Of a stretch of DNA of 64,000 nucleotides, positions 6,192-60,690 are shown piece by piece; positions within the stretch are counted from its first letter, which is position 1; every line of letters starts with the position of its first letter. The DNA is from Trileptium ribeirensis (taxonomy: Eukaryota; Nematoda; Enoplea; Enoplida; Thoracostomopsidae), in the NCBI GenBank assembly GCA_030248225.1, contig JASANE010030321.1, positions 1 to 64,000 of the forward strand. The letters run 5' to 3'. The translations under genes were made by a program, and so were the position numbers. The notes below the pieces were generated by a model that was given only the letters and a program-made list of their open reading frames with translations, ran no database searches and was not told where the DNA came from.

Positions 6192-6622
6192 TGTAGGGCT
6201 TATTGTTTTGGCAAGCATAATTGCATTATTTTTTATTGACAAAGTTTAGTATTTTATTAACAATGTGAGCGCTACTCAATAAAAAAATAGTAACGAAATA
6301 CCAATCGATATTGCTACAAAACTATTACTAACGTAACAAAAAGGTGTTGAAACGGCTTAGTTCATCATACGAAACGCTCAGTAACAACGGCGCAAAAGGG
6401 ATGAGTTATAAGTCGTCTCTTGATGATTGCCACATCCCTCTGAACTAAAATCTTTTAAACTATGCGGCCCTTTTAACAACTTATTCCATGCACTCATGCA
6501 AATTAGCAGAAAGCTAGCTCAATTCACTTTATACAACTAAAACATGTATTTACTACATATTTAGGCTAACGTTTCAACAGTATGCAAAATAATTTTTGGT
6601 GAAGAAAACTGAATACCTCACA
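6192..6622 (-). repeat. 3' LTR of the Gypsy element
   Basis: This 431-bp repeat matches 12882-13313 with about eight or nine differences. Read on the minus strand it starts TGTGAGG and ends CCCTACA. A TATAAA box lies at 6528-6533, about 90 nt into the LTR. Two AATAAA signals (6253-6258 and 6232-6237) lie near its end, fitting U3-R-U5 order. Next to its inner edge the minus strand reads GGGGGGTAG (6623-6631), a short polypurine tract that would prime plus-strand synthesis. Confidence 0.93.
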
Positions 6623-6735
6623 CTACCCCCCGGGCAAGAGGCGGAGCCACTAACGAGAAACCCTCACGAATTTTTAAACCGAGAGATCTGGTTCAACCAC
6701 TTAAATTACAAAATTATTACATAAAACGAAAACAT

Positions 6736-7308
6736 TCAAGTCAATGACATAACATAATTAATAAGACAATTTTGTACGATTGCAACACCATCACGATTTA
6801 AATGTAAACCATCAACAAAACAAGCGTCAGGAAGATCCTCGAACTTAAGAACTCTTATATTTGATGGCAATTCCTGTTGATTGTACGCCTCCAAAAGCAT
6901 GGCATTGTAACGACCAATGTGAGAATTGATTCTTCGATTGACAGACGACGCCCTATTTAAAATGCAAGTAATGTGAAGTTTTGCCAGCGGACACTCTTTC
7001 CTGAAATGTTCAATGAACGTTTTAATCTCTTTGAACAATTTTTTGGACCCATCTTTGCCTTGTTATCCCTGCTAACTAAATTGTTTGTACCAGCAACAAC
7101 GATTACATCCTTGATGTATTTCCCAGTCAGCCAAGGTGCTAATTGAGCGATGTACTGAAATTTGCGCCCGGTAGGCTTATTACCGCAAGATTTCGATTCA
7201 TTCTTTGCCTTAATTCGTATATCTTTAGCTTTTTAGGTAACGAGTCACTAACAACGAGCAAATCCGGCAACGTGCCTGTGTTTCCCTGATAGTAATCGCG
7301 TATGGACA
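6736..7308 (-). pseudogene. Third-ORF downstream half: SGNH/GDSL-type hydrolase domain, frameshifted copy
   Basis: Downstream of the NADAR segment, in changing frames, are the blocks of an SGNH hydrolase. Block I is VVSDSLPKK (7230-7255, nucleophile Ser in SDS). Block III is VIVVAGTNN (about 7081-7112; the usual G-x-N-D has N in place of D). Block V is DGLHLN (6796-6813), with the Asp and His of the triad. The frame ends in TGA at 6736-6738. In known members the fold cleaves esters or acetyl groups; the substrate here is unknown. Three single-base breaks separate the blocks and the NADAR part, in the runs at 7311-7315, 7230-7234 and 7039-7044. Each would be explained by one base missing from a homopolymer. 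This may be real decay or a sequencing fault. Esterase-like ORFs are known in some CR1-type non-LTR elements. I know of no standard LTR element with one. Confidence 0.75.
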
Positions 7309-7704
7309 TCAAAAATTTTCCCCCTTCGTTGCGTGGAATACCAAAAAATGATCAAAGCGGTTGTTTTCAACCAAAGTGTTAGACTCAGTATTAAGCAAAA
7401 AGGCGCTTAGGCACTCATTTTGATCAAACTTTTCAAAGTCTAAACGTAACATTATGTCCCGTTTAACAATATTCCACCAATGTGGATGGCTGTTACGGAT
7501 TGCTTTACTCAAACGCTTTTGTTTAACTCCATCAGGTTCTAACCTGATACGCGTTGCAGAACTGGAATCTTGTCCGAGTGTCGCTTTTGCAAACTGATAT
7601 AGCTGTTCGACAGTGGACCATTGCCAGTCAAAAAGCACCACGGAAGACGGATACAAGTGAGAAAGTGGATGCTTCGGTCCCAAAAAGTAGTACGCACCCT
7701 GAAA
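7309..7704 (-). CDS. Third-ORF upstream half: NADAR (YbiA/DUF1768-like) domain protein of the retrotransposon
   Basis: The frame opens at the splice-acceptor region near 7699-7706 and has no ATG of its own in front of the domain, so it probably depends on splicing. It reads YYFLGPKHPLSHLYPS, then WSTVEQLYQFAKA (the W-x-TVEH-x-x-Q-x-x-KA signature), an A..P..K segment, WWNIVKRDIM, KFDQNECLSAFLLNT and LVE....DHF. These are the NADAR landmarks in order over about 130 residues. Characterised NADAR proteins are N-glycosidases that act on ADP-ribose-type substrates (riboflavin-pathway intermediates, ADP-ribosylated guanine). The glutamate of TVE is kept, but the usual D-x-x-W-G near the end reads DHFLVF, so activity is uncertain. 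The frame closes at 7309 after a T run and the SGNH part follows in another frame. It lies 3' of pol, the position of env in retrovirus-like elements. Confidence 0.8.
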   Translation of the reverse strand, partial: FQGAYYFLGPKHPLSHLYPSSVVLFDWQWSTVEQLYQFAKATLGQDSSSATRIRLEPDGVKQKRLSKAIRNSHPHWWNIVKRDIMLRLDFEKFDQNECLSAFLLNTESNTLVENNRFDHFLVFHATKGENF

Positions 7705-7732
7705 CTGAAGGAAACAAATGAAAACACTAAAA
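7699..7732 (-). promoter_or_regulatory. Probable 3' splice acceptor for the third ORF
   Basis: On the minus strand a pyrimidine-rich tract (TTTTCATTTGTTTCCTTCAG) ends in AG at 7705-7706, with a second AG six bases on (7699-7700). Both lie just before the open NADAR frame and about 120 nt after the pol stop at 7826. This matches the spliced subgenomic mRNA layout used by env genes of LTR elements. It is an inference from sequence only. Confidence 0.5.
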
Positions 7733-7825
7733 AACTATGGAAAACTATATCCCGCGCAAATCCCAACACAAAGATAGACCACGTGACTGGATCTACTGCG
7801 AGCGCCTCGATACCAGTCCGCGATA

Positions 7826-10800
7826 CTAGCAGCGTGCTGCAATTGGCGCAAATGAAACTGTTTTAGTCCTGAGACTTGTCGCAGTTTTACTATCTTGACA
7901 AAAAGCGTTTTGACCAAACAAGAAATCTTCTGCTTGCCTACTCGCTCTATTCAGGCCTCGATGTTTCGTTTGCAAACTATGAAACTTAAACACATGCTTT
8001 GCTGGAATAAGAGCATACCTGTTTGTGCCGAAAAAACGTACGGCAACATCAAACTTACCCGGAGCAGTGTGGCGTAACGGAGTTTCGAGAGGGTTTACAA
8101 CCACCGCTGGCCACGGTGGATAACCATGGAATTTGGCCAACACAACTGTATCGAATGGCCACGCAGGATTGGAAGTTCTATGACGTGACTCTATCGATTT
8201 TGTTTCGCGATCACGGTGTTCAGTTGGTGTTGGTGTTGACAATTCAGAATACAGAAAAGCGGGTTTCACCCTATCTATAGACAAACGTTCTTTGTTTCCA
8301 TTGATTTCCAAAGAAATAGTTTTGTCGTCCCGGTCAACAATCTTGAAAGGCCCGGCATAGCGGCTACAAAGAGAAGACTTTGGGGAATGTTGCCGTACCC
8401 AAGCATGCGAGCAACGTACAAGATCTTTCGGAACAAGGTGAGCAGCATGATGTTCCCGACGCGGAGCGGGAAAGTTTTGAACAGCCGAAAACAACTTATT
8501 TAGAAACAATGTTGTTGGAACATCATGCTCATGCTCGGATTTGACAAAGAAGTCTACTGGCAACTCAACGTTAGATCCGTACACCAATTGCGACGGACTA
8601 AACCCTTGGTCGCTTATCGTCGACCTAATTCCTAGTAAAACTAGTGGAAGCGCGTTGAACCAATCTGCTGAGTCACATGTCGCGTGCAGCGCGTTTTTAA
8701 GAGTGCGGTGGAAACGTTCTACGGCGCCATTCGAAGCTGGGTGATAAGAAGTAGTACGCTTCCTTACAATCCCCAGGCGATTCATCAATAGATTCCAAAG
8801 TGAAGACTCAAACTGGGCGCCACGATCTGATATTACTGCACGTGGAACACCAAATCGACTGATCCAACCCTGAAGAAGTGCGCGGACGACAGATTCAGTC
8901 GAAATATCTGCAACTGGTATTGCCTCCACCCATCTGGTGAAGCGATCCACTATTGTTACAAGATGCCTGAATCCACAAGAGGGTGGTAACGGACCCACTA
9001 CGTCTATATGAATTGTGTGAAAACGCCCAGTAGTCGGTATTTGACCAATTGGCGCTTTAGTATGCCGCGTAATTTTCGATTTCTGGCATTTTTCGCAATG
9101 CTTGACCCACAGCGAAATGTCCTTACCAATTCCCGGCCAAATATAATCATTCTTAATCAACCGCAAAGTGCCGCGTAGTCCAGGATGTGATAAACCGGGG
9201 ACTTGTTGAAATAGCCGATGCCTCATCGACTCTGGGACGTACGGTCGAAAAAAACGGTCACATATCAGTTGAACGCCGTTAATTACCCTTTCAACAAGTA
9301 CAGACTCCGTTGAAGCAAAAAATTTTTGTAAGCTTTCATCCTTCGACTGTTCCTCAGCTATGCACTGGTCAAAACTAACTGTAAGTGCTCCAACAAACCG
9401 TGACATATTATCAGCGACTATATTCTGGGTGCCGGACAAATGCTCTATCGTGCAATTAAACTCCGAGTTATAAGACAACCACCGCGCTTGCTGTGGTGTT
9501 GGTTCCTTCATCTCCAGGGCGCGAAGCAACGGTTTATGATCAGTAAAAATTTTGAATCGCAGCCCTACAAGCCAATTGAAATGCTTGAGGCTCAAATATA
9601 TAGCTAAAAGCTCGCGATCAAAGGCCGACTTCTGAGCTTCTACCCTACTCAGCTTGCGAGAAAAGAAGGCAAGTGGTTGACGATGGGATCCGACCACCTG
9701 ATTAAGAACTGCCCCCACAGCTTTCGTAGAAGCGTCAGTCGTTAACTCAATATCGGCGTCAGGATTAGGAAAAACTAGTGTTACCGCTTGCATGAGTGCA
9801 GTCTTTATTTTTTTAAATGACATAATCTGTTCTGCCGACAGCTGAATCGCCGCCGAACTCTTTCCTTTGTGGCCACATGTTAATGAAGAAAGAGGGGCAC
9901 TAATATCTGAAAAATTTTTCACAAAGCGGTGATAAAAACCAGCTGTCCCGAGGAAGCTTCTCAGCTCCTTCACGTTCTTTGGCAGTTCAATTTTTCCGAT
10001 CGCATCAACCTTACTTGGAACTGGACGAATACCAGTGCTCGATACTTCAATACCGACAAAATTAACTTTGAGCTGGAAAAAAGTGCACTTTTTTGCTTTC
10101 AATCTCAAACCATTCTCCTCAAGGCGTTGGAAAACAATTTGCAAATGCCTAAAATGCTCCCTATCAGTCTTGCTTGCAATTAGAATGTCATCCATGTACG
10201 CCTTAGCAAACGGTAACCCATGAAGTGCTATATCAATTAAACGCCGAAAACTTTGTGCCGCATTTCTAAGACCAAAATGCATCCGCCGATAAATGAACAA
10301 ACCGAACGGAGTTATGATCGCCGTCTTGGGTTGATCCTCCGTGGCAATAGGAATTTGATGAAATGCGCTCACCAGATCAAGTTTGGAAAAAACGTTACAG
10401 TTAGACAGCTCATTGGTTATACCAGAAATATTTGGCATGGGGTACCTGTCGGGTACAGTGACACGATTGAGCCGTCTATAATCCCCACACGGCCGCCAAG
10501 GCTCCGCGATGTCATTCTTGGTAGCCACGTGGAGCGGCGCAGCCCATGGAGACTCTCCTCTAAAAACAATCCCTTGTTGCTCAAGTTTAGCAAAGTGTTC
10601 TCTCGCTATCCGAAGTTTATCTCCTAGTCGCCTAGGTCGCCTAGGTTTTGCAAACACCGGTGGGCCAGAGGTAGTGATGTAATGTTTTACACTGTGACGA
10701 ACGGTATCTGTCGCTGCTATGGGCTGAAACAATTGAGAGTATCTACTAAGTAGTGCGTCAACGGAAAAAGGTTCTGAAACAATCCCGCGAATAGTATTCA

Positions 10801-11200
10801 GCAAACAAGACTTTGGAACAACAGTGTTTGTTAAACAGTCGACAAGTAACTCACAGTGAGTCAAAAAATCACGACCTAAAATGGGATCAACCACGTCAGC
10901 TATCCAAAACTTCCAGGAAAAATTTGTGTCAAACCCGTTTATTGTAAACTTGACATTTCTACGAGCAATTGGTTTAATAGGCGTGTTGTTTGCCGCTTTC
11001 ATAAGTGGAACCTGCATTTGGCAAAATGGTGCGAATTCACCAAGATTGGCAAAATGTTTTGGTAATAAGCTGCAGTCACTACCAGTATCTGCAACAAAGT
11101 ACCCAACTGAACTTGCGGCAATACGAACAGAGTTTACTCCGGTGACTGCCGCGCCCCCACCGGAGAGCTTCCATTTCCCGAACGGGCTGTCCAAGAGCAT
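7826..11200 (-). CDS. pol: Pol polyprotein: protease, reverse transcriptase, RNase H, integrase, C-terminal PWWP domain
   Basis: This is a continuous 1124-codon frame. The aspartic protease motif ADTGSDCSLLP is at residues 37-47. RT runs from about 190 to 400, with KLDLVSAFHQIP near 273 and the catalytic YMDD at 335-338. RNase H has TTDAS at 486, DRELLA at 527 and FTDHKPLL at 551. Integrase has the HPGLRGT...C..C zinc part (His671, Cys701, Cys704) and the DDE core Asp732, Asp791 and Glu827. A GPF-type segment (YAGPFKIV) is near 947. Residues about 1014-1075 form a PWWP domain: VVLAKFHGYPPWPAVVV, then VRFFGTNRYALIP. PWWP domains read H3K36-methylated nucleosomes, so this tail probably steers integration, as chromodomains do in chromoviruses. 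The first ATG lies inside gag, and Pol is more likely made by -1 frameshifting at 11173-11179 than from that ATG. The stop is TAG at 7826-7828. All catalytic residues are present. Confidence 0.95.
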   Translation of the reverse strand: MLLDSPFGKWKLSGGGAAVTGVNSVRIAASSVGYFVADTGSDCSLLPKHFANLGEFAPFCQMQVPLMKAANNTPIKPIARRNVKFTINGFDTNFSWKFWIADVVDPILGRDFLTHCELLVDCLTNTVVPKSCLLNTIRGIVSEPFSVDALLSRYSQLFQPIAATDTVRHSVKHYITTSGPPVFAKPRRPRRLGDKLRIAREHFAKLEQQGIVFRGESPWAAPLHVATKNDIAEPWRPCGDYRRLNRVTVPDRYPMPNISGITNELSNCNVFSKLDLVSAFHQIPIATEDQPKTAIITPFGLFIYRRMHFGLRNAAQSFRRLIDIALHGLPFAKAYMDDILIASKTDREHFRHLQIVFQRLEENGLRLKAKKCTFFQLKVNFVGIEVSSTGIRPVPSKVDAIGKIELPKNVKELRSFLGTAGFYHRFVKNFSDISAPLSSLTCGHKGKSSAAIQLSAEQIMSFKKIKTALMQAVTLVFPNPDADIELTTDASTKAVGAVLNQVVGSHRQPLAFFSRKLSRVEAQKSAFDRELLAIYLSLKHFNWLVGLRFKIFTDHKPLLRALEMKEPTPQQARWLSYNSEFNCTIEHLSGTQNIVADNMSRFVGALTVSFDQCIAEEQSKDESLQKFFASTESVLVERVINGVQLICDRFFRPYVPESMRHRLFQQVPGLSHPGLRGTLRLIKNDYIWPGIGKDISLWVKHCEKCQKSKITRHTKAPIGQIPTTGRFHTIHIDVVGPLPPSCGFRHLVTIVDRFTRWVEAIPVADISTESVVRALLQGWISRFGVPRAVISDRGAQFESSLWNLLMNRLGIVRKRTTSYHPASNGAVERFHRTLKNALHATCDSADWFNALPLVLLGIRSTISDQGFSPSQLVYGSNVELPVDFFVKSEHEHDVPTTLFLNKLFSAVQNFPAPRREHHAAHLVPKDLVRCSHAWVRQHSPKSSLCSRYAGPFKIVDRDDKTISLEINGNKERLSIDRVKPAFLYSELSTPTPTEHRDRETKSIESRHRTSNPAWPFDTVVLAKFHGYPPWPAVVVNPLETPLRHTAPGKFDVAVRFFGTNRYALIPAKHVFKFHSLQTKHRGLNRASRQAEDFLFGQNAFCQDSKTATSLRTKTVSFAPIAARC

Positions 11201-12483
11201 GGACTACTGCACTTCCGAGCGCGCGTGCCGAACGAAAAGTGGTAATAGCAGAATTTGCCATTCGGATTAAACCTACCCGAACTCTTACTTCTGTCCCTAC
11301 GAAAAACTGGTTTGTTTCTGGACAAATCACTATACAGAGTGCCGCTACGATTGCTAAAAGAGTTGTACTTGCCACTTCGCACACCCTGTGCACCTAAAGT
11401 TATCGCTTGTACAGCGGACGAAAGTTGCTGGATTTGATTCCTTAGACTATCAAACTCATTCCCAACTGAACACGATGGCTTAGACACAGTTGCAACTGAA
11501 GAAACGCTCCGTGGCAAGTGGCACATCATCTTGTCAGCCGCTTCAGCTAGCTTCTCTAGAGAGGTGTCGCTTGAAAATGTGCTCAATACAATTCGCACTT
11601 CGCTGGGAAGCATCTCAAAAAACCTAAACCGCACAAGATTTTCACTATTTGGTGCCAGTTCCATCAAGTGACGAAGCGCGGAAGAAGGCTTCTGGTCACC
11701 TAACATTTGCTCATTCAACAGCTTACGCAACTTTTGCTCTACTGTGTCGTCAAAATGTTTGATAATTTGATTCTTGAGTTGTTCATAAGACACAGACACC
11801 TCAGCACCACACTGCTTCAACGCTGAAACTGGAACAACGCGAAGTAGACTGTTTTTCCGCACGATCTCAGTCGTACCTGATAACATTTGATCTACAGTTT
11901 CAAACCATTTCCTGGTATCACTCTCAAAAAAATCAGGCAATTTAATAGTACGACCAACTTCTACTAAATTCTGAGCAGTGGAGCTTTGTGTTGATGGTTT
12001 AACGGACGCTAACAGTATAGAAACAATCCGATCACCATATTGATTAACCCATGCTACCAACTCATCTTTCGTCACAGTGGATGCAATTTTAAAATCAGGG
12101 GTTGTTTCGTTAAGAAGACGCAAAACAGCCTCCAGGTCCGCTTTAGTGTATTGGCTTAACTCCAACGGACCTGGGTTCAGTTCAACATCCCCAGAAAGGA
12201 TAAGGAGCCATGTTAACGCACTAGAATGCTTAGCGGACAAACGCAAACAAACAGTAAAACACTCTGACTTTACATGTTTTCTAAAAGATAATGAGCGCCT
12301 AAACAAATTTTCACTATACGGAATAGATAGCATGAGGGATACTTGAAAATGCGCAAGGCGGAACCACGGAACACAATAAAAGTTAGCTGTAGCGAATGAT
12401 TCGGTATAACTCTGCTCCCTACTTTGCGTTAAACCAATTCCACTAATTAAAATTACACGGCAAAATACTTGTGCAAGTTGCAT
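11134..12483 (-). CDS. gag: Gag protein with N-terminal 2A-terminated leader and CHCC zinc knuckle
   Basis: This is a 449-codon frame from ATG at 12483 to TAA at 11134. Residues 1-105 form a leader with a hydrophobic, signal-like start (MQLAQVFCRVILISGIGL). It ends in LLILSGDVELNPGP (93-106), a full 2A motif, so ribosomes should release the leader and restart at Pro106. Residues about 160-330 resemble the CsRn1-type Gag core: LPDFFESDTRKWFE, KLRKLLNEQMLGDQKPS, ALRHLMELA, FFEMLPSEVR and LEKLAEAADKM. Residues 412-429 form a C-x2-H-x9-C-x3-C knuckle (CYYHFSFGTRARKCSSPC), the CHCC variant of the clade. The last 22 codons overlap pol in the -1 frame. The start ATG sits about 400 nt after the 5' LTR. 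I cannot say whether the leader is secreted or inserted in a membrane. Confidence 0.93.
   Translation of the reverse strand: MQLAQVFCRVILISGIGLTQSREQSYTESFATANFYCVPWFRLAHFQVSLMLSIPYSENLFRRSLSFRKHVKSECFTVCLRLSAKHSSALTWLLILSGDVELNPGPLELSQYTKADLEAVLRLLNETTPDFKIASTVTKDELVAWVNQYGDRIVSILLASVKPSTQSSTAQNLVEVGRTIKLPDFFESDTRKWFETVDQMLSGTTEIVRKNSLLRVVPVSALKQCGAEVSVSYEQLKNQIIKHFDDTVEQKLRKLLNEQMLGDQKPSSALRHLMELAPNSENLVRFRFFEMLPSEVRIVLSTFSSDTSLEKLAEAADKMMCHLPRSVSSVATVSKPSCSVGNEFDSLRNQIQQLSSAVQAITLGAQGVRSGKYNSFSNRSGTLYSDLSRNKPVFRRDRSKSSGRFNPNGKFCYYHFSFGTRARKCSSPCSWTARSGNGSSPVGARQSPE
11137..11179 (-). promoter_or_regulatory. -1 programmed ribosomal frameshift site (gag to pol)
   Basis: In the Gag frame the heptamer G GGA AAT (X XXY YYZ pattern) lies at 11179-11173. 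A 7-nt spacer (11172-11166) separates it from a perfect 8-bp GC-rich stem CTCCGGTG/CACCGGAG (11165-11158 with 11144-11137) around a 13-nt loop. The gag stop TAA (11136-11134) follows the stem directly. The offset between the gag and pol frames is -1, as required. Confidence 0.88.
12166..12207 (-). other. 2A-like ribosome-skipping peptide in Gag
   Basis: The codons read LLILSGDVELNPGP (Gag residues 93-106). The D-V-E-x-N-P-G-P core is complete and is preceded by a leucine-rich helix with serine-glycine, as in active 2A peptides of several non-LTR retrotransposons and of some invertebrate genes. The skip would fall between Gly105 and Pro106. Confidence 0.9.
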
Positions 12484-12860
12484 GATTCGCTCGTTATCGT
12501 CCTAAATCAATTACATGACTTCAAATTAGCTAGCCATCCTTTTAAACTTACCTTAATTGGCGGTCGAATAGCTATAAGCCTTGCTAAATTACTTATATTT
12601 CCCCAACGCTTGAAAAAGACGCCTGTGAAATCACACTACCGTCAAACTGACATAGAAAACAAAAGTTGTTTACCATGACAAAAGAAACACTGAAACATCC
12701 GATCACTTTCTTCAATACTCGATGTCGACTCACGAAAGGTCGCCCGGGCTCGAACAACGACAAATTGTCAATTATGGACGACTGCGGAATTGAATAAGAC
12801 TTCGCCAGACTGAGATCGCCGACGAAATAATTGAGCTTTGAATAGGCTGAATGATACCGA

Positions 12861-12878
12861 ATCACGTCGGGTTCACCA
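12861..12878 (-). other. Primer-binding site, tRNA-Trp type
   Basis: The plus strand here reads ATCACGTCGGGTTCACCA, which equals the 3' end of animal tRNA-Trp plus CCA except for one base (T where the vertebrate tRNA I recall has G). It lies three bases inside the 5' LTR, the expected place for minus-strand DNA priming. A Trp primer is typical of CsRn1-clade elements. Confidence 0.85.
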
Positions 12879-12881
12879 TCT

Positions 12882-13313
12882 TGTAGGGTTTATTGTTTTG
12901 GCAAGCATAATTGCATTATTTTCTATTGATAAAGTTTAGTATTTTGTTAACAATGTGAGCGCTACTCAATAAACAAAATAGTAACGAAATACCAATCGAT
13001 ATTGCTACAAAACTATTACTAACGTAACAAAAAGTTGTTGAAACGGCTTAGTTCATCATACGAAACGCTCAGTAACAACGGCGCAAAAGGGATGAGTTAT
13101 AAGTCGTCTCTTGATGATTGCCACATCCCACTGAACCAAAATCTTTTAAACTATGCGGCCCTTTTAACAACTTATTCCATGCACTCATGCAAATTAGCAG
13201 AAAGCTAGCTCAATTCACTTTATACAACTAAAACATGTATTTACTACATATTTAGGCTAACGTTTCAACAGTATGCAAAATAATTTTTGGTGAAGAAAAC
13301 TGAATACCTCACA
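12882..13313 (-). repeat. 5' LTR of the Gypsy element
   Basis: This is the partner of the LTR at 6192-6622. The few differences include both poly(A) signals of the 3' copy, which here read AATAGA and AACAAA. The TATAAA box is kept. This LTR would drive transcription leftward through gag and pol. Confidence 0.93.
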
Positions 13314-13664
13314 CTAATACCGACAGTCTCACATAAATTGAACTGTTATCAAAATTCAGATCTAATCTGTGCACTCTGACAAATTTGGAAAGTAAGTTGT
13401 GAAAGTTTTGAGGAATTTGGTCCGAATTGCGTCATATGCTATACTCATGATTTAAATTCTCTGATCCTACATTTAAAAATGTAGAGTGCTGAAACACTTT
13501 GAACCGAGGTGTCGAGGCTCAGATGACTTAAGATCGCCGTTATAAGCGATACTATCCTTATTAAGTTGTAATTTTGTTTTATTATGACTTTATTTAAATA
13601 AATTTTAGGCGTGTTTGTAATACTCCGCCAACAGGATAAGCCACCCAATGTTAGATATGACAAA

Positions 13665-39000: not shown

Positions 39001-42000
39001 TGTAGCCATGACGTGGTGGTCGGAGCATCGTGTAGCCGTGACGTGGTGATCGGAGCATCGTGTAGCCGTGACGTGGCGGTCGCAGCATCGTGTAGCCGTG
39101 ACGTGGTGGTCTGAGTATCGTGTAGCCGTGACGTCGCGGTGGAAGCATTATGTAGCAGTGACGTGGTGGTCGGAGCATCGTGGATTTGTGATGTCGTAGC
39201 CGTGATATTCAATTTTTTGAAAACAACAGTATTAAAGTTGGTCCCGTTACTTAATTGTCAAAGTCCGTTAAGCGGTTTTGTTTTCCTTTTCCATATACAA
39301 TAATCAAGTTGGATGACGGCTTTGGTGAATTTAGATCTTGAAATATGCATAACGTTTGTTGCACTTGGAGTATCAAACAGTAAAGCAGCTGATTTTTTCA
39401 CGTAACTGTATCTATCGCTTCCAAAAAAATAAACAAACAACTGCGAATTCGTATCTTTACGTCCAGGGAAAGTAGTATCTTTCGATATTACAGCTGGCCA
39501 GAGAGAATTTTTAGTTAAAGTACCCACAAAGAATCATCGATATTAAACATTATTAATATTGTTAGCAATAATTTGCCAATTAATAGTATAACACTGAAAT
39601 ACACCGAAGCATAAATTGTAGCATTTAAGAAAATATAGCCTAAAATATTAAAATTTCTTAATATGGAACATTTAAAGCTGTGACGCTCTGGCCCGTCAGT
39701 TGCTCACAAACCACCTCTATACCTACAAAAAGGCAGTGTGGCGGGTATCTATACAACGTATGTAATGGTGAATGGTAACAAGCAGTGTTGGGCTATTATT
39801 GACAAAATCTTTTAATGTTAGTGATTATTGTCCAACGCAAAAGTTCGAAGAAATGTGACAGAACAGTACAGTTTATGACGTACGAAAACAGGATCGCCAG
39901 CTTTGAGGACATTGTAAATACGGTGTATCTAAAATAAAATTAGTTCGTATGGTATAGATTTCAATTAATAACATTGCTGCGTTTTCTAAATAACAGCTGA
40001 CCTATAAACACGCTACAACTGTGACCGCGTTAGGGCCTATGCTCAGAAGAAAATACCAGCAGTTGCTCCTACAGAGGCAAAAGCCCTATTAGGGGCCCAT
40101 TTAGTGATACAGCTGACCTATAAACACGCTACAACTGTGACCGTGTTAGGGCCTATGCTCAGAAGAAAATACCAGCAGTTGCTCCTACAGAGGCAAAAGC
40201 CCTATTAGGGGCCCATTTAGTTATACAGCTGACCTATAAACACGCTACAACTGTGACCGTGTTACGGCCTATGCTCAGAAGAAAATACCAGTAGTTCCTC
40301 CTACAGAGGCAAAAGCCCTATTAGGGGCCCATTTAGTGATACAGCTGACCTATAAACACGCTACAACTGTGACCGTGTTAGGGCCTATGCTCAGAAGAAA
40401 ATACCAGCAGTTGCTCCTACAGAGGCAAAAGCCCTATTAGGGGCCCATTTAGTGATACAGCTGACCTATAAACACGCTACAACTGTGACCGTGTTAGGGC
40501 CTATGCTCAGAAGAAAATACCAGCAGTTGCTCCTACAGAGGCAAAAGCCCTATTAGGGGCCCATTTAGTTATACAGCTGACCTATAAACACGCTACAACT
40601 GTGACCGTGTTACGGCCTATGCTCAGAAGAAAATACCAGTAGTTCCTCCTACAGAGGCAAAAGCTCTATTAGGGGCCCATTTAGTGATACAGCTGACCTA
40701 TAAACACGCTACAACTGTGACCGTGTTAGGGCCTATGCTCAGAAGAAAATACCAGCAGTTGCTCCTACAGAGGCAAAAGCCCTATTAGGGGCCCATTTCA
40801 TTATACAGCTGACCTATAAACACGCTACAACTGTGACCGCTTACGGCCTATGCTCAGAAGAAAATACCAGTAGTTCCTCCTACAGAGGCAAAAGCCCTAT
40901 TAGGGGCCCATTTAGTGATACAGCTGACCTATAAACACGCTACAACTGTGACCGTGTTACGGCCTATGCTCAGAAGAAAATACCAGTAGTTCCTCCTACA
41001 GAGGCAAAAGCCCTATTAGGGGCCCATTTAGTGATACAGCTGACCTATAAACACGCTACAACTGTGACCGTGTTACGGCCTATGCTCAGAAGAAAATACC
41101 AGTAGTTCCTCTTACAGAGGCAATAGCCCTATTAGGGGCCCATTTAGTGATACAGCTGACCTAGAAAGATGTTACAACTGTGACCGGGTTAACGGCCTAT
41201 GCTCAGAAGAAAATACCAGTAGTTCCTTCTGACAGAGGCAAAAAGCTCTATTAGGGGCCCGATTTAGTGATACAGCTGACCTTATAAACAGGCTGCCAGA
41301 CCGTGACCGTGTTAGGGCCTATGCTCAGAAGAAAATACCAGCAGTTGCTCCTACAGAGGCAAAAGCCCGATTAGGGGCCCATTTAGTTATACAGCTGACC
41401 TATAAACACGCTAGAAATGTGACCGTGTTACGGCCTATGCTCAGAAAGAAAATACCAGTAGTTCCTCCTACAGAGGCAAAAGCCCTGATCAGGTGCCCAT
41501 TTAGTGATACAGCTGACCTATAAACACGCTACAACTGTGACCGTGTTACGGCCTATGCTCAGAAGAAAATACCAGTAGTTCTTTTAGAGGCAAAAGCCCT
41601 ATTAGGGGCCCATTTAGTGATACAGCTGACCAGAAACACGTGCAACTGTGACCGTGTTACGGCCTATGCTCAGAAGAAAATACCAGTAGTTTTCCCTCCT
41701 GCATAGGCAAAAGCCCTATTAGGGGCCCATTTAGTGTATACAGCTGACCTATAAACACGCTACAACTGTGACCGTGTTACGGCCTATGCTCAGAAGAAAA
41801 TACCAGTAGTTCCTCCTACAGAGGCAAAAGCCTTATTAGGGGCCCATTTAGTGATACAGCTGACCTATAAACACGCTTAAAACTGTGACCAAGGTCTGTT
41901 ACGGCCTATGCTCAGAAGAAAATACCAGTAGTTCCTTTTCCTACAGAGGCAAAAGCCCTCATCAGGGGCCCATTTCTAGTGATACAGCTTACCTATAAAC

Positions 42001-45000
42001 ACGCTACAACTGTGACCGTGTTACGGCCTATGCTCAGAAGAAAATACCAGTAGTTCCTCCTACAGAGGCAAAAGCCCTATTAGGGGCCCATTTAGTGATA
42101 CAGCTGACCTATAAACACGCTACAACTGTGACCGTGTTACGGCCTATGCTCAGAAGAAAATACCAGCAAGTACTACCTACAGAGGCAAAAGCCCTATTAG
42201 GGGCCCATTTAGTTATACAGCTGACCTATAAACACGCTACAACTGTGACCGTGTTACGGCCTATGCTCAGAAGAAAATACCAGTAGTTCCTCCTACAGAG
42301 GCAAAAGCCCTATTAGGGGCCCATTTAGTGATACAGCTGACCTATAAACACGCTACAACTGTGACCGTGTTACGGCCTATGCTCAGAAGAAAATACCAGT
42401 AGTTCCTCCTACAGAGGCAAGCTCCAAATTGTAGGGCCCATTTAGTGATACACCTGACCTATAAACACGCTACAACTTATGGTTAGGCCTATGCTCAGAA
42501 GCAATACCAGCAGTTGCTCCTACAGAGGCAAAAGCCCTATTAGGGGCCCATTTAGTTATACAGCTGACCTATAAACACGCTACAACTGTGACCGGTTACG
42601 GCTATGTTAGAAGAAAATACCAGTAGTTCCTCCGACAGAGGCAAAAGCCCTATTAGGGGCCCATAGATGCCTACAACACCAGCCCCGCAGAAGAAAATAC
42701 CAGTAGTTCCTCCTACAGAGGCAAAAGCCCTATTAGGGGCCCATTTAGTGATACAGCTGACCTATAAACACGCTACAACTGTGACCGTGTTACGGCCTAT
42801 GCTCAGAAGAAAATACCAGTAGTTCCTCCTACAGACTCAAAACCACTATAATAGGCCCATATAGTGATACAGCTGACCTATAAACACGATACAACTGTGA
42901 CAGTGTTACGGCCTATGCTCAGAAGAAAATACCAGTAGTTCCTCCTACAGAGGCAAAAGCCCTATTAGGGGCCCATTTAGTGATACAGCTGACCTATAAA
43001 CACGCTACAACTGTGACCGTGTTACGGCCTATGCTCAGAAGAAAATACCAGTAGTTCCTCCTACAGAGGCAAAAGCTCTATTAGGGGCCCATTTAGTGAT
43101 ACAGCTGACCTATAAACATGCTACAACTGTGACCGTGTTACGGCCTATGCTTGAAAGAAAATACCAGTAGTTCCTCCTACAGAGGCAAAAGCTCTTATGC
43201 AGGGGCCAGATTTAGTAATACAGCTGACCTATAAACATGCTACAACTGTGACCGTGTTAGGGCCTGTGCTCTGAACAAAATAACAGCAGTTGCTCCTACA
43301 GAAGCAAAAGCCCTATTAGGGGCCCATTTAGTGATACAGCTGACCTATAAACACGCTACAACTGTGACCGTGTTACGGCCTATGCTCAGAAGAAAATACC
43401 AGTAGTTCCTCCTACAGAGGCAAAAGCTCTATTAGGGGCCCATTTAGTGATACAGCTGACCTATAAACACGCTACAACTGTGACCGTGTTACGGCCTATG
43501 CTCAGAAGAAAATACCAGTAGTTCCTCCTACAGAGGCAAAAGCTCTATTTGAGGGCCCATTTAGTGATACAGCTGACCTATAAACACGCTACAACTGTGA
43601 CCGTGTTACGGCCTATGCTCAGAAGAAAATACCAGTAGTTCCTCCTACAGAGGCAAAAGCCCTATTAGGGGCCCATTTAGTGATACAGCTGACCTATAAA
43701 CACGCTACAACTGTGACCGTGTTACGGCCTATGCTCAGAAGAAAATACCAGTAGTTCCTCCTACAGAGGCAAAAGCTCTATTAGGGGCCCATTTAGTGAT
43801 ACAGCTGACCTATAAACACGCTACAACTGTGACCGTGTTACGGCCTATGCTCAGAAGAAAATACCAGTAGTTCCTCCTACAGAGGCAAAAGCTCTATTAG
43901 GGGCCCATTTAGTGATACAGCTGACCTATAAACACGCTACAACTGTGACCGTGTTAGGGCCTATGCTCAGAAGAAAATACCAGCAGTTGCTCCTACAGAG
44001 GCAAAAGCCCTATTAGGGGCCCATTTAGTGATACAGCTGACCTATAAACACGCTACAACTGTGACCGTGTTACGGCCTATGCTCAGAAGAAAATACCAGT
44101 AGTTCCTCCTACAGAGGCAAAAGTCCTATTAGGGGCCCATTTAGTGATAGGGCTTTTGCATTTTTGTTATACTACTGCGAATATTATTATACTGGGATAG
44201 GTCTTTAGCTCAGATTATTATAGTTATATCGGTTATATTTGGGACAAATTAAAAACGAAATTCGACTTATACACGAGATAGGACCTTTGGTCGGATTAAC
44301 GGTACAATGATATTTAAGGCCAGATGTGGAAGGTAAGGGGCGCACCCTAAGTTTACTCATGTGCATAAATTAATACTCACTCAAATGTTGTCTAATAAAC
44401 GACATCATAAGCTCGTTGTTGATCGTGTTGCAAATGTGTGGATCGATAGTGCCACGTATTTTGAGAAAAGACGCCAGTCGAGGCGATGATGAGCCGACAA
44501 ACGCGAAGTCACATTGGCTAGCGTGGACTGTCCCTCTGAAACAATAACAAAAAACAAGTTAGCTGCTACAGGCCGCGCCAACATGAAGATGTAACGAAAA
44601 TATACAGTGCAAAATTTTTATACATCCAATAATTTCAACAACACACGTTTAATAATGCGGTCACTTAGAAGTTTCTAAAGGAACTTTCGAGAAGATATTT
44701 GTACCTTTCTTCACCTATTTTGGTGCAGTACCAAGCTCAACAACGACTTTCGCGCGTATAAAGCCTGTTTCATTGACTCCATACGTAGTTGATCTATTTG
44801 GCTGATTTTATGGACAATTTCTAAAACAGCTTAGACTCACGTAGTTGTCAGCACAACTTCACATGTTAAATTTGTCTGGTATTATTGTAAATGCTTAATA
44901 TTCTGTTTAACAGCTGCATAATAATGCGTAACTAAACTTAAAACATTTTTCGTCAGCCGGTCAGAAAATGCTAGTTTTTGTTCGCGAATAGAATTTTGTC

Positions 45001-59025: not shown

Positions 59026-60690
59026 TTATTCAATTTCCATAGAAACATGTAGTTTCTTTTTATCAATTCCTTTGAAGAAACATCTAGTCTGAAAGCAGTT
59101 ATTTCCATCGCGCCACTTTGATTGATGGTTCCTATATGAACAGTCTTTTAAGAAAGTCTTAACAATCGTATTACTTATAGGAATACAAGGTCCGGGATCC
59201 ACAAACGCAGTGTCCGATCCCTTCTTAGCCAGCCTATCAGCCACTTCACTCCCAAACAGTCCAGAATGTCCTTTAATCCAACCTAGTTTCAAGCTATTCC
59301 TCTTACCAACCCTATTAAGATGCTTTACGCATTTTAGCACGCACCAAGATCTGGTTCGAGAATTATCTAATGCTTTAAGTGCAGTTTGACTATCGCTAAA
59401 AATAGCGATACTTCTGATCCTAAGTTTTCTTCTTCTAAAATTTCTGCGCATCTGCATATAGCAGTAACCTCTGCCCGAAAAACAATTGCATGTCGACCAA
59501 GTCGGATGAATAGTGATACTTTATTTGGAATAAAGATACCCCCACCACAACTTCTTTCATTGCCCCTGACGATCGCCGAACCATTCGTGTAACATATCAT
59601 TTCAGTACTTTCCACGGACTCTACGCTAAAGTCATCATAAATCCAGAATTGGTTATTCCTAGTTGCTACCGTACTATCTGAAGCCATGCTCAGAAGGGGA
59701 CCATATTTGACAGCTTCCTCCGCAATCGTCGGTTGCCCACGTCCTTTAAATATATAATCACTCCTCCGCTATCGTCGGTTGCCCACGTCCTTTAAATATA
59801 TAATCACTCCAGATACCCATACATTTGAATCTGTGGTATTCCTTCAGCGCCAATTCTTTAGCCAATACATCAATGGGTGTGATATTCAACACCACTTGCA
59901 CACCATCAAGAGGACTGGTTCTAAAAGCACCCCTAATCATGCAACAAGCTAATCTTTGAACCTTTTTACGAAAGCCTGCATATGACACCAAATGTAATCT
60001 GTGCCACCAGCACACCACGACATACATCAGTGACGGCATAACCACTGACTTATACAAAAAAATTTGTTATACCTGGTTTCAACCCCCAATTACAGCCTGC
60101 AAATCTTTTAAATGAGAACAGACGACTAATGGCTTTACTACAATATTCCATCAAATTTGGCTTCCAGTTTAGTTTGCTGTCTAATATTGACCCAAATATT
60201 TAACTTAACTCGAAAGCGGTACAGCTGTACCACCTATCACCAGCTGCTTATACCCACGTATACTCGTACTTTCCGGAACCCAATGAATAGATTCACAGAA
60301 TTTCGTCCATTTTCCAATTTCCTATCTTTAATCATGTACTTATACTGATTTTGCAACATCCTATGTTTGTTCCACGTTCTTAAGTCACCATATTTAACCG
60401 CCATTCTATAAAGTTTCCTGACTTTTTCTTAATACTTGCTAACTTATCATTCCACCATCTATTGCGATTCGCTCGATTAAGTTTTATCGTACAATTCTCT
60501 TGCGCCGCTGTTATAAGGGAGCTAGTTAATTTCATCACAGTAATATCAATGTCATCTTTACTATTACACTGATCCCATTCTTCAGCATTTATAATTTCTT
60601 TTACCCTTCCTTTATATGAATTCCAATTTAATTTCCTAATATTGAGCTCAGGTTTTCCAGTTTTAACGGAATTCACAACCATTCTGAACA
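59026..60690 (-). pseudogene. Decayed non-LTR retrotransposon, I/R1-like, with RNase H and internal deletion
   Basis: On the minus strand, an endonuclease C-terminal piece (NRNRWWNDKLASIKKKSGNF, 60682-60380) is followed at once by the 3' part of the RT (thumb region and YKSVVMPSLMYVVVCWW, about 60330-59760), then an RNase H domain (GGGIFIPNKVSLF, FRAEVTAICRCAEIL, FSDSQTALKAL, GHSGLFGSEVADRLAKKGSD; 59690-59100). The catalytic RT core is missing. A stop and frame changes occur, and the usual acidic D of 'YTDGS' reads YTNGS. A 46-bp tandem repeat near 59713-59808 marks another rearrangement. A RNase H domain places it with I-like elements. Confidence 0.85.

Follow-up and report, generated by a model that had tools for sequence, protein, structure and literature searches.

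NADAR and SGNH enzyme domains have each been described in retroelement proteins. In Ectocarpus Gypsy elements (Gypsy-12_Ec32) Pol has an N-terminal NADAR of the YbiA family, and the open reading frame 1 (ORF1) protein of the oyster Tx1 long interspersed nuclear element (LINE) carries a NADAR as well (PMC12477816). Bdelloid rotifer long terminal repeat (LTR) retrotransposons, namely Vesta1 and related elements, have third ORFs (ORF3s) of the GDSL and DEDDy types (PMC5408684), and the ORF1 esterase of the LINE ZfL2-1 binds phospholipids and hydrolyses esters (PMC3905857). Here, a 64,000-base stretch of contig JASANE010030321.1 of the nematode Trileptium ribeirensis (hereafter the window; 40.5% GC) is described. 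Within it lies a single decayed LTR retrotransposon from a diverse lineage, assigned to the Ty3/Gypsy type from its LTRs and the order of its Pol domains. In this lineage, NADAR and SGNH are joined in a third ORF placed on the minus strand between pol and the 3' LTR, that is, in the env position. Judging from the copies compared below, this arrangement is almost certainly a feature of the lineage.

Like Gypsy-12_Ec32, the nematode element is an LTR/Gypsy element with a NADAR and with a chromatin reader after the integrase; however, in Ectocarpus the NADAR belongs to Pol and a chromodomain serves as reader, whereas here a separate NADAR-SGNH third ORF is found together with a PWWP domain, and the words SGNH and PWWP are absent from the main text of that paper (PMC12477816). 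With the Vesta1-type elements it shares an SGNH/GDSL domain that takes the place of env and has no membrane segment, but the main text of the rotifer paper lacks the word NADAR (PMC5408684). The oyster Tx1 ORF1 likewise places a NADAR within a retroelement protein, but in a non-LTR element and in a gag-like position (PMC12477816). ZfL2-1 supplies the best solved SGNH relative (4c1b) when a 17-row profile is used, although it is a non-LTR element whose esterase lies in ORF1 with a coiled coil, and NADAR goes unmentioned in the abstract (PMC3905857). The NADAR fold and catalytic residues are shared with 8bau, the NADAR of P. nicotianae, and with 2b3w, the YbiA of E. coli, which are described as oomycete and bacterial proteins outside LTR elements (PMC11543638). 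Among the matches listed in the mostly open-access literature searched, PMC9503650, PMC11125620 and PMC9303266 included and bioRxiv preprints excluded, neither a NADAR-SGNH fusion in an LTR element, in the passages compared, nor, in titles and the starts of abstracts, a PWWP on a retrotransposon integrase was found. The original prediction, made from the window alone, that such an architecture was not known from any LTR element stands for the fusion but not for its parts, since Gypsy Pol proteins with NADAR (PMC12477816) and ORF3s of the GDSL type (PMC5408684) had already been published.

The same prediction had placed a NADAR in the env position of an LTR retrotransposon, and this was confirmed: the LTRs (5' LTR, 12882-13316; 3' LTR, 6192-6625; both minus strand) are 98.2% identical over 435 columns, Pol has RT, RNase H and integrase domains, and a NADAR domain lies at 7309-7698 on the minus strand (PF08719, E 7.4e-19). 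The frame carrying it (7309-7734) scored 69 bits against a cut-off of 35.1, and all three NADAR catalytic residues (E, K and the third E) are present; searched alone against the PDB with phmmer, it gave weak matches (YbiA, E 0.42; 8bau, E 0.48). A single minus-strand frame had also been proposed, which is correct as to strand and position but not as to continuity. In this decayed copy the frame exits before the C-terminal end of the NADAR domain and shifts again inside SGNH, so that the NADAR end and the SGNH blocks fall in different frames. The SGNH blocks occupy three frames, all on the minus strand and recognised by homology to intact copies: block I (SDS) at 7139-7309 by eye, block III (GTNN) at 6957-7232 from the ORF list, and block V (DGLH) with the C-terminal end at 6736-7062. 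Profile searches, clear for NADAR, fell short for these pieces: 6736-7062 had Lipase_GDSL_2 as its sole match, with E 0.086 and 13.8 bits against a cut-off of 32.9, and 6957-7232 had no Pfam match. An overlapping TGA/ATG near 7309 was considered as a coupled start and rejected; it is the trace of a frame break, because intact copies read straight through the site.

The genome (687 Mb, 20,229 contigs) was searched with the window NADAR, and the best 150 of 561 candidates were scored. At least 110 matches at E ≤1e-3 were obtained, including the window's own and some NADARs split over two rows. Forty sister loci (match rows 2-43, minus C14872 and the second match on C14049) were compared by tblastn with the window reverse transcriptase (RT), RNase H-integrase, PWWP and NADAR; all were found through NADAR, and the family counts apply to such copies. 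RNase H-integrase lies upstream of NADAR on the same strand in 35 of the 40, PWWP is present in 35, and neither was detected in L034, L040, L051 and L052. NADAR and SGNH form a single open frame of 317-344 aa in ten loci (L013, L014, L015, L016, L021, L026, L029, L030, L033 and L035, of which L016 is near-identical to L021, leaving nine distinct ORFs), and the expectation that other copies would carry the same 3' ORF was thus borne out. PF08719 scores are 66-85 bits in all ten. In the intact-ORF elements L030 and L035 the LTR stretches show 100% identity, over 273 nt in the first and 251 nt in the second, and those of L033 and L026 reach 98.7% over 308 nt and 95.7% over 278 nt; recent insertion of these elements is therefore likely. 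Two weaker matches, L060 and L061, are by eye NADAR proteins without SGNH, and the genome therefore holds other NADAR ORFs too. L061 (C17834) and similar loci have stand-alone NADAR ORFs about 195 aa long that occur in multiple copies, most with 33-37% identity to the window query, and weak NADAR matches also occur within open frames of 1093-2347 aa on contigs C12324, C9357, C1847 and C8487.

Hydrolysis of guanine-ADP-ribose by NADAR requires a glutamate (E43/E88), a lysine (K50/K95) and an acidic residue (E125/D171), which in YbiA-type NADARs is glutamate (PMC11543638). The residue counts cover the window and its 40 sister loci; sites that did not align were excluded, and near-identical copies were counted separately. 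The first glutamate is kept in 36/38, the lysine in 37/39 and the third acid, as glutamate, in 35/36. For SGNH the figures are Ser 19/20 (18 unaligned), Gly 24/32, Asn 27/32, Asp 23/31 and His 26/30, and Ser, Asp and His are all retained in six of the nine distinct intact ORFs. Some families have thus lost SGNH residues but retained those of NADAR, which suggests that NADAR catalysis would be the more constant requirement. The ratio of nonsynonymous to synonymous substitution (dN/dS), proposed as a test of the ORF, had medians below 1: 0.38 for NADAR (14 pairs) and 0.34 for SGNH (12 pairs), with 0.13 for RT (8 pairs) and 0.47 for integrase (13 pairs), the last being noisy and taken from broken copies. 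These medians use pairs with dS of 0.02-1 and at least 60 codons, and the inclusion of decayed copies with stop codons skipped shifts the values towards 1; in five pairs with NADAR dS of 0.4-0.8, NADAR dN/dS was 0.15-0.23. Pairwise NADAR distances correlate with those of SGNH (r 0.80), RT (0.65) and integrase (0.67), as expected under co-inheritance. Taken at the level of sequence, these data show that the examined copies share a third ORF, that it is co-inherited with pol and subject to purifying selection, and that its NADAR active site is complete. The idea of a captured two-domain enzyme is partly sustained by this conserved ORF, its catalytic residues and dN/dS below 1.

Relatives also occur outside this genome. 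A single-sequence protein search with the window NADAR returned no relatives, and alignment-based searches of public collections, metagenomes among them, found the proteins P0001-P0006, fused NADAR-SGNH proteins with 39-47% identity to L030 over 90-97% of its length; P0001 bears the source name 'ribA/ribD-fused uncharacterized protein'. A further fused relative, P0012, is 45% identical to P0001 over 93%, P0007 is partial and P0008 more distant. The SGNH assignment, below cut-off in the window copy alone, is supported at the level of the family by P0012, P0032 and P0033, which exceed the Pfam GDSL cut-off, and by a profile from 17 relatives, whose best match among solved structures is 4c1b (1.2e-8), followed by the PAF-acetylhydrolase 2hsj (1.3e-7). 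With a 10-row profile 2hsj ranked first instead, and the LINE ORF1 esterase was not among the matches listed by VIA-align, unlike in the profile search; sialate O-acetylesterases stand near the top in both Foldseek and VIA. In a NADAR tree of 24 rows (nine host ORFs without L016, P0001-P0006 and nine other NADARs), the host ORFs and P0001-P0006 form one group (support 99/98) in which host and metagenome rows are intermixed, and the other nine, including P0008, fall outside; the inner order is not resolved and several outer rows are long branches. In P0032 (602 aa) and P0033 (447 aa), which we take to be LINE ORF1-like from their domain make-up, both domains exceed the Pfam cut-offs but stand in reverse order, SGNH then NADAR, and with CCHC-type knuckles: the end of P0032 matched retroviral nucleocapsid knuckles in the PDB (2.3e-5), its start weakly matched PHD proteins (0.013), and P0033 had zf-CCHC below threshold. 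That the two domains also occur together in reverse order speaks for their activities being functionally linked. P0010 and P0055, presumably also of ORF1 type and by eye alike to the oyster Tx1 ORF1, have NADAR only, with no SGNH by precomputed Pfam. Viral contigs scanned with Pol gave no relative, and with the ORF alignment gave three loci read as NADAR-only.

For expression of the third ORF, splicing offers a probable explanation. The NADAR-SGNH frame opens right after an AG, and in 9/10 intact ORFs the first in-frame ATG lies at least 20 codons into it. In the window, a pyrimidine-rich tract ending in AG (7699-7720, minus strand) is the predicted acceptor, directly followed by the NADAR frame in phase 0, and sister loci are alike. 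A clean N-terminal motif is present in 30 loci (the other 10/40 were set aside), and in 25 of these AG stands exactly four codons ahead of the motif, against an AG background of 5.6%. The last in-frame stop is TAG in 27/40 loci, where TAG makes up 25% of stops, and a T-rich run precedes that stop in 26/40 (background 4.3%); a stricter pyrimidine count gave 19/30 vs 3.1%. At the other end, a candidate primer binding site (PBS), GGTGAACCCGACG (12865-12877, minus strand), lies directly inside the 5' LTR, and the same 13-mer, GGTGAACCCGACG, is found a few bases from the LTR end in four other elements. Past it by 201-286 nt, ATG|GTR occurs in 5/5 leaders (L056-L059 and the window), and 3.7% of ATGs in the loci have GTR directly 3'. 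In the window leader this is ATG|GTAAAC (12672-12676, minus strand), where exon 1 is predicted to end in the start codon, with a splice donor right after it; another ATG lies 22 nt upstream. Ten further leader stretches of 221 nt (L062-L071) were targeted at the same place, and ATG|GTR was seen in five (L066-L070), with 13.7% expected in random stretches. Met stands at the predicted junction position in P0001 and P0004, and another residue in P0002, P0003 and P0006. The simplest reading is a single splice that joins the leader ATG|GT in phase 0 to the acceptor AG of NADAR and yields an M-AQLRYFG-type start, a post hoc prediction in which we have good confidence.

In the reading that we favour, and to which as a whole we give an even chance, the spliced third ORF would encode a soluble NADAR-SGNH enzyme that strips ADP-ribose in the element's particle. 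A singly spliced mRNA, whose leader exon ends in the start codon and is joined in phase 0 to the NADAR acceptor, would give a protein acting inside the cell on the ribonucleoprotein or cDNA of the element. The protein is predicted to be soluble: by hydropathy, neither a signal peptide nor a membrane anchor was found in the intact ORFs and relatives, the ORF begins directly with the NADAR fold, and hydrophobic peaks, which reach 2.04 in L015 and 2.35 in P0004, fall within SGNH, with the sole exception of P0005, whose peak is N-terminal, in sequence read upstream of the domain. NADAR would remove ADP-ribose from guanines of the element RNA or single-stranded cDNA, reversing ADP-ribosylation by the host, or alternatively would destroy ADP-ribose signal molecules, and SGNH may act in that particle as an esterase or on lipid membranes, a role drawn from its closest solved relatives by profile, the LINE ORF1 esterase and PAF-acetylhydrolase. 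That the NADAR domain hydrolyses ADP-ribose is itself an evenly balanced proposal from its residues, and a counter-defence role of the ORF, against ADP-ribosylation or nucleotide signals as first predicted, is a tentative one.

Several observations weigh against this reading. We know of no ADP-ribosylation of retroelement nucleic acid. The NADAR lysine is absent in L029, a residue of the SGNH triad is gone in three of the nine distinct intact ORFs (L013, L015 and L016/L021), four of the ten intact ORFs have no Pfam GDSL match at E up to 1, and the dN/dS of both NADAR and SGNH exceeds that of RT (0.13). As regards splicing, the window leader has a second donor-like site, GTAAGT at 12551, four of the ten further stretches lack ATGGTR, and L065 matched only in the PBS (plus ATG|GTC). 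Three of these misses are off target, L062 and L064 ending too close to the PBS and L063 falling by eye in gag, but for L071 no such reason was found. Moreover, L015 has an in-frame ATG at codon 4 and would not need that of the leader, and one to three other ATGs stand between the PBS and ATG|GT in 4/5 leaders; confidence in splicing is reduced for these two reasons.

A possible, though rather doubtful, alternative is a ribonucleoprotein and membrane module like LINE ORF1 proteins, in which SGNH would bind or cleave lipids for assembly and transport and NADAR would trim ADP-ribose or NAD-derived groups on element RNA. The ZfL2-1 esterase, with its phospholipid binding and ester hydrolysis, is the best solved SGNH match, the ORF1-like P0032 and P0033 have both domains, SGNH catalytic residues are lost in some families, and C. 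elegans SNA-3 employs NADAR domains in trans-splicing (PMC9303266); however, Pfam found no RNA-binding domain in the ten intact ORFs. An extension of the favoured reading, which we hold unlikely, would make NADAR and SGNH a two-bond eraser recruited repeatedly by two retroelement classes: NADAR would cut the ADP-ribose-guanine N-glycosidic bond on element RNA or cDNA, SGNH would cut ester-type marks of the same pathway, such as Asp/Glu-linked ADP-ribose, O-acetyl-ADP-ribose or a lipid ester, and in the LTR lineage the spliced mRNA with its leader-borrowed start codon would be a counter-ADP-ribosylation accessory gene. NADAR/YbiA N-glycosidases act in riboflavin biosynthesis (PMC9503650, PMC9303266) and by sequence no solved NADAR is closer than YbiA, but an N-glycosidase for riboflavin intermediates or a soluble nucleotide, unrelated to nucleic-acid ADP-ribose, is improbable here: the three residues acting on guanine-ADP-ribose (E, K and E) are retained, and a retroelement has no clear reason to keep such an enzyme. 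More improbable still is an envelope substitute in which SGNH acts extracellularly like a viral receptor-destroying esterase, an idea encouraged by the env position and the high-ranking sialate O-acetylesterases and set aside on the hydropathy evidence given above, the ORF starting with the NADAR fold and not with a signal peptide-like sequence. That a host gene was inserted by chance into one copy, or that the domains are functionless passengers, could be suspected from the broken window copy, but is refuted by the ORF, which dozens of divergent copies have at this position, its fused metagenome relatives, dN/dS below 1 and the retained catalytic residues, and its probability is negligible.

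The rest of the element is as follows. The pol ORF (1125 aa; 7826-11203, minus strand) matched RVT_1, RT_RNaseH_2, Integrase_H2C2, rve and a C-terminal PWWP, each over the Pfam cut-off, in the RT-RNase H-integrase order of Ty3/Gypsy; the PWWP domain lies at 7931-8149 (minus strand; PF00855, 6.5e-14). In L043, one copy, a 214-nt unit of the integrase region stands in tandem with six consecutive tblastn matches. Direct LTRs surround gag-pol in the window element, and LTR ends were also located in four further elements; by eye, no matching flanks of a target-site duplication were seen at the LTR edges of the window copy. The gag-type ORF (455 aa; 11134-12501, minus strand, from the ORF list) had DUF7041, below cut-off, as its sole Pfam match. 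Near its start, a 2A-like stretch, LLILSGDVELNPGP, was read from the translation at 12166-12207 (minus strand); SGNVELNPGP recurs in L057 and L058, and its NPGP is what we take to be a 2A motif. It closes an N-terminal gag piece of about 100 aa, which by eye has a signal peptide-like start in L057 and L058 and in L058 gave no Pfam match. Elsewhere in the window, a long tandem array with a unit of about 116 bases occupies 39993-44149, and a frame at 59026-59520 (minus strand) resembles by eye a non-LTR RNase H or Pol remnant; Rfam gave no match at gathering score across the window.

Since the genome itself offers copies that look intact and recently inserted, the favoured reading can be tested. 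LEDGF, a PWWP protein, guides lentiviral integration, and a PWWP reader on a Gypsy-type Pol is of separate interest given that role. Some RNA and DNA viruses carry macrodomains and NADAR (PMC9503650). If the favoured reading is true, an endogenous retroelement lineage would keep an ADP-ribose-removing third gene in a manner similar to these viruses, and ADP-ribosylation of nucleic acids would be a pressure on retroelements.
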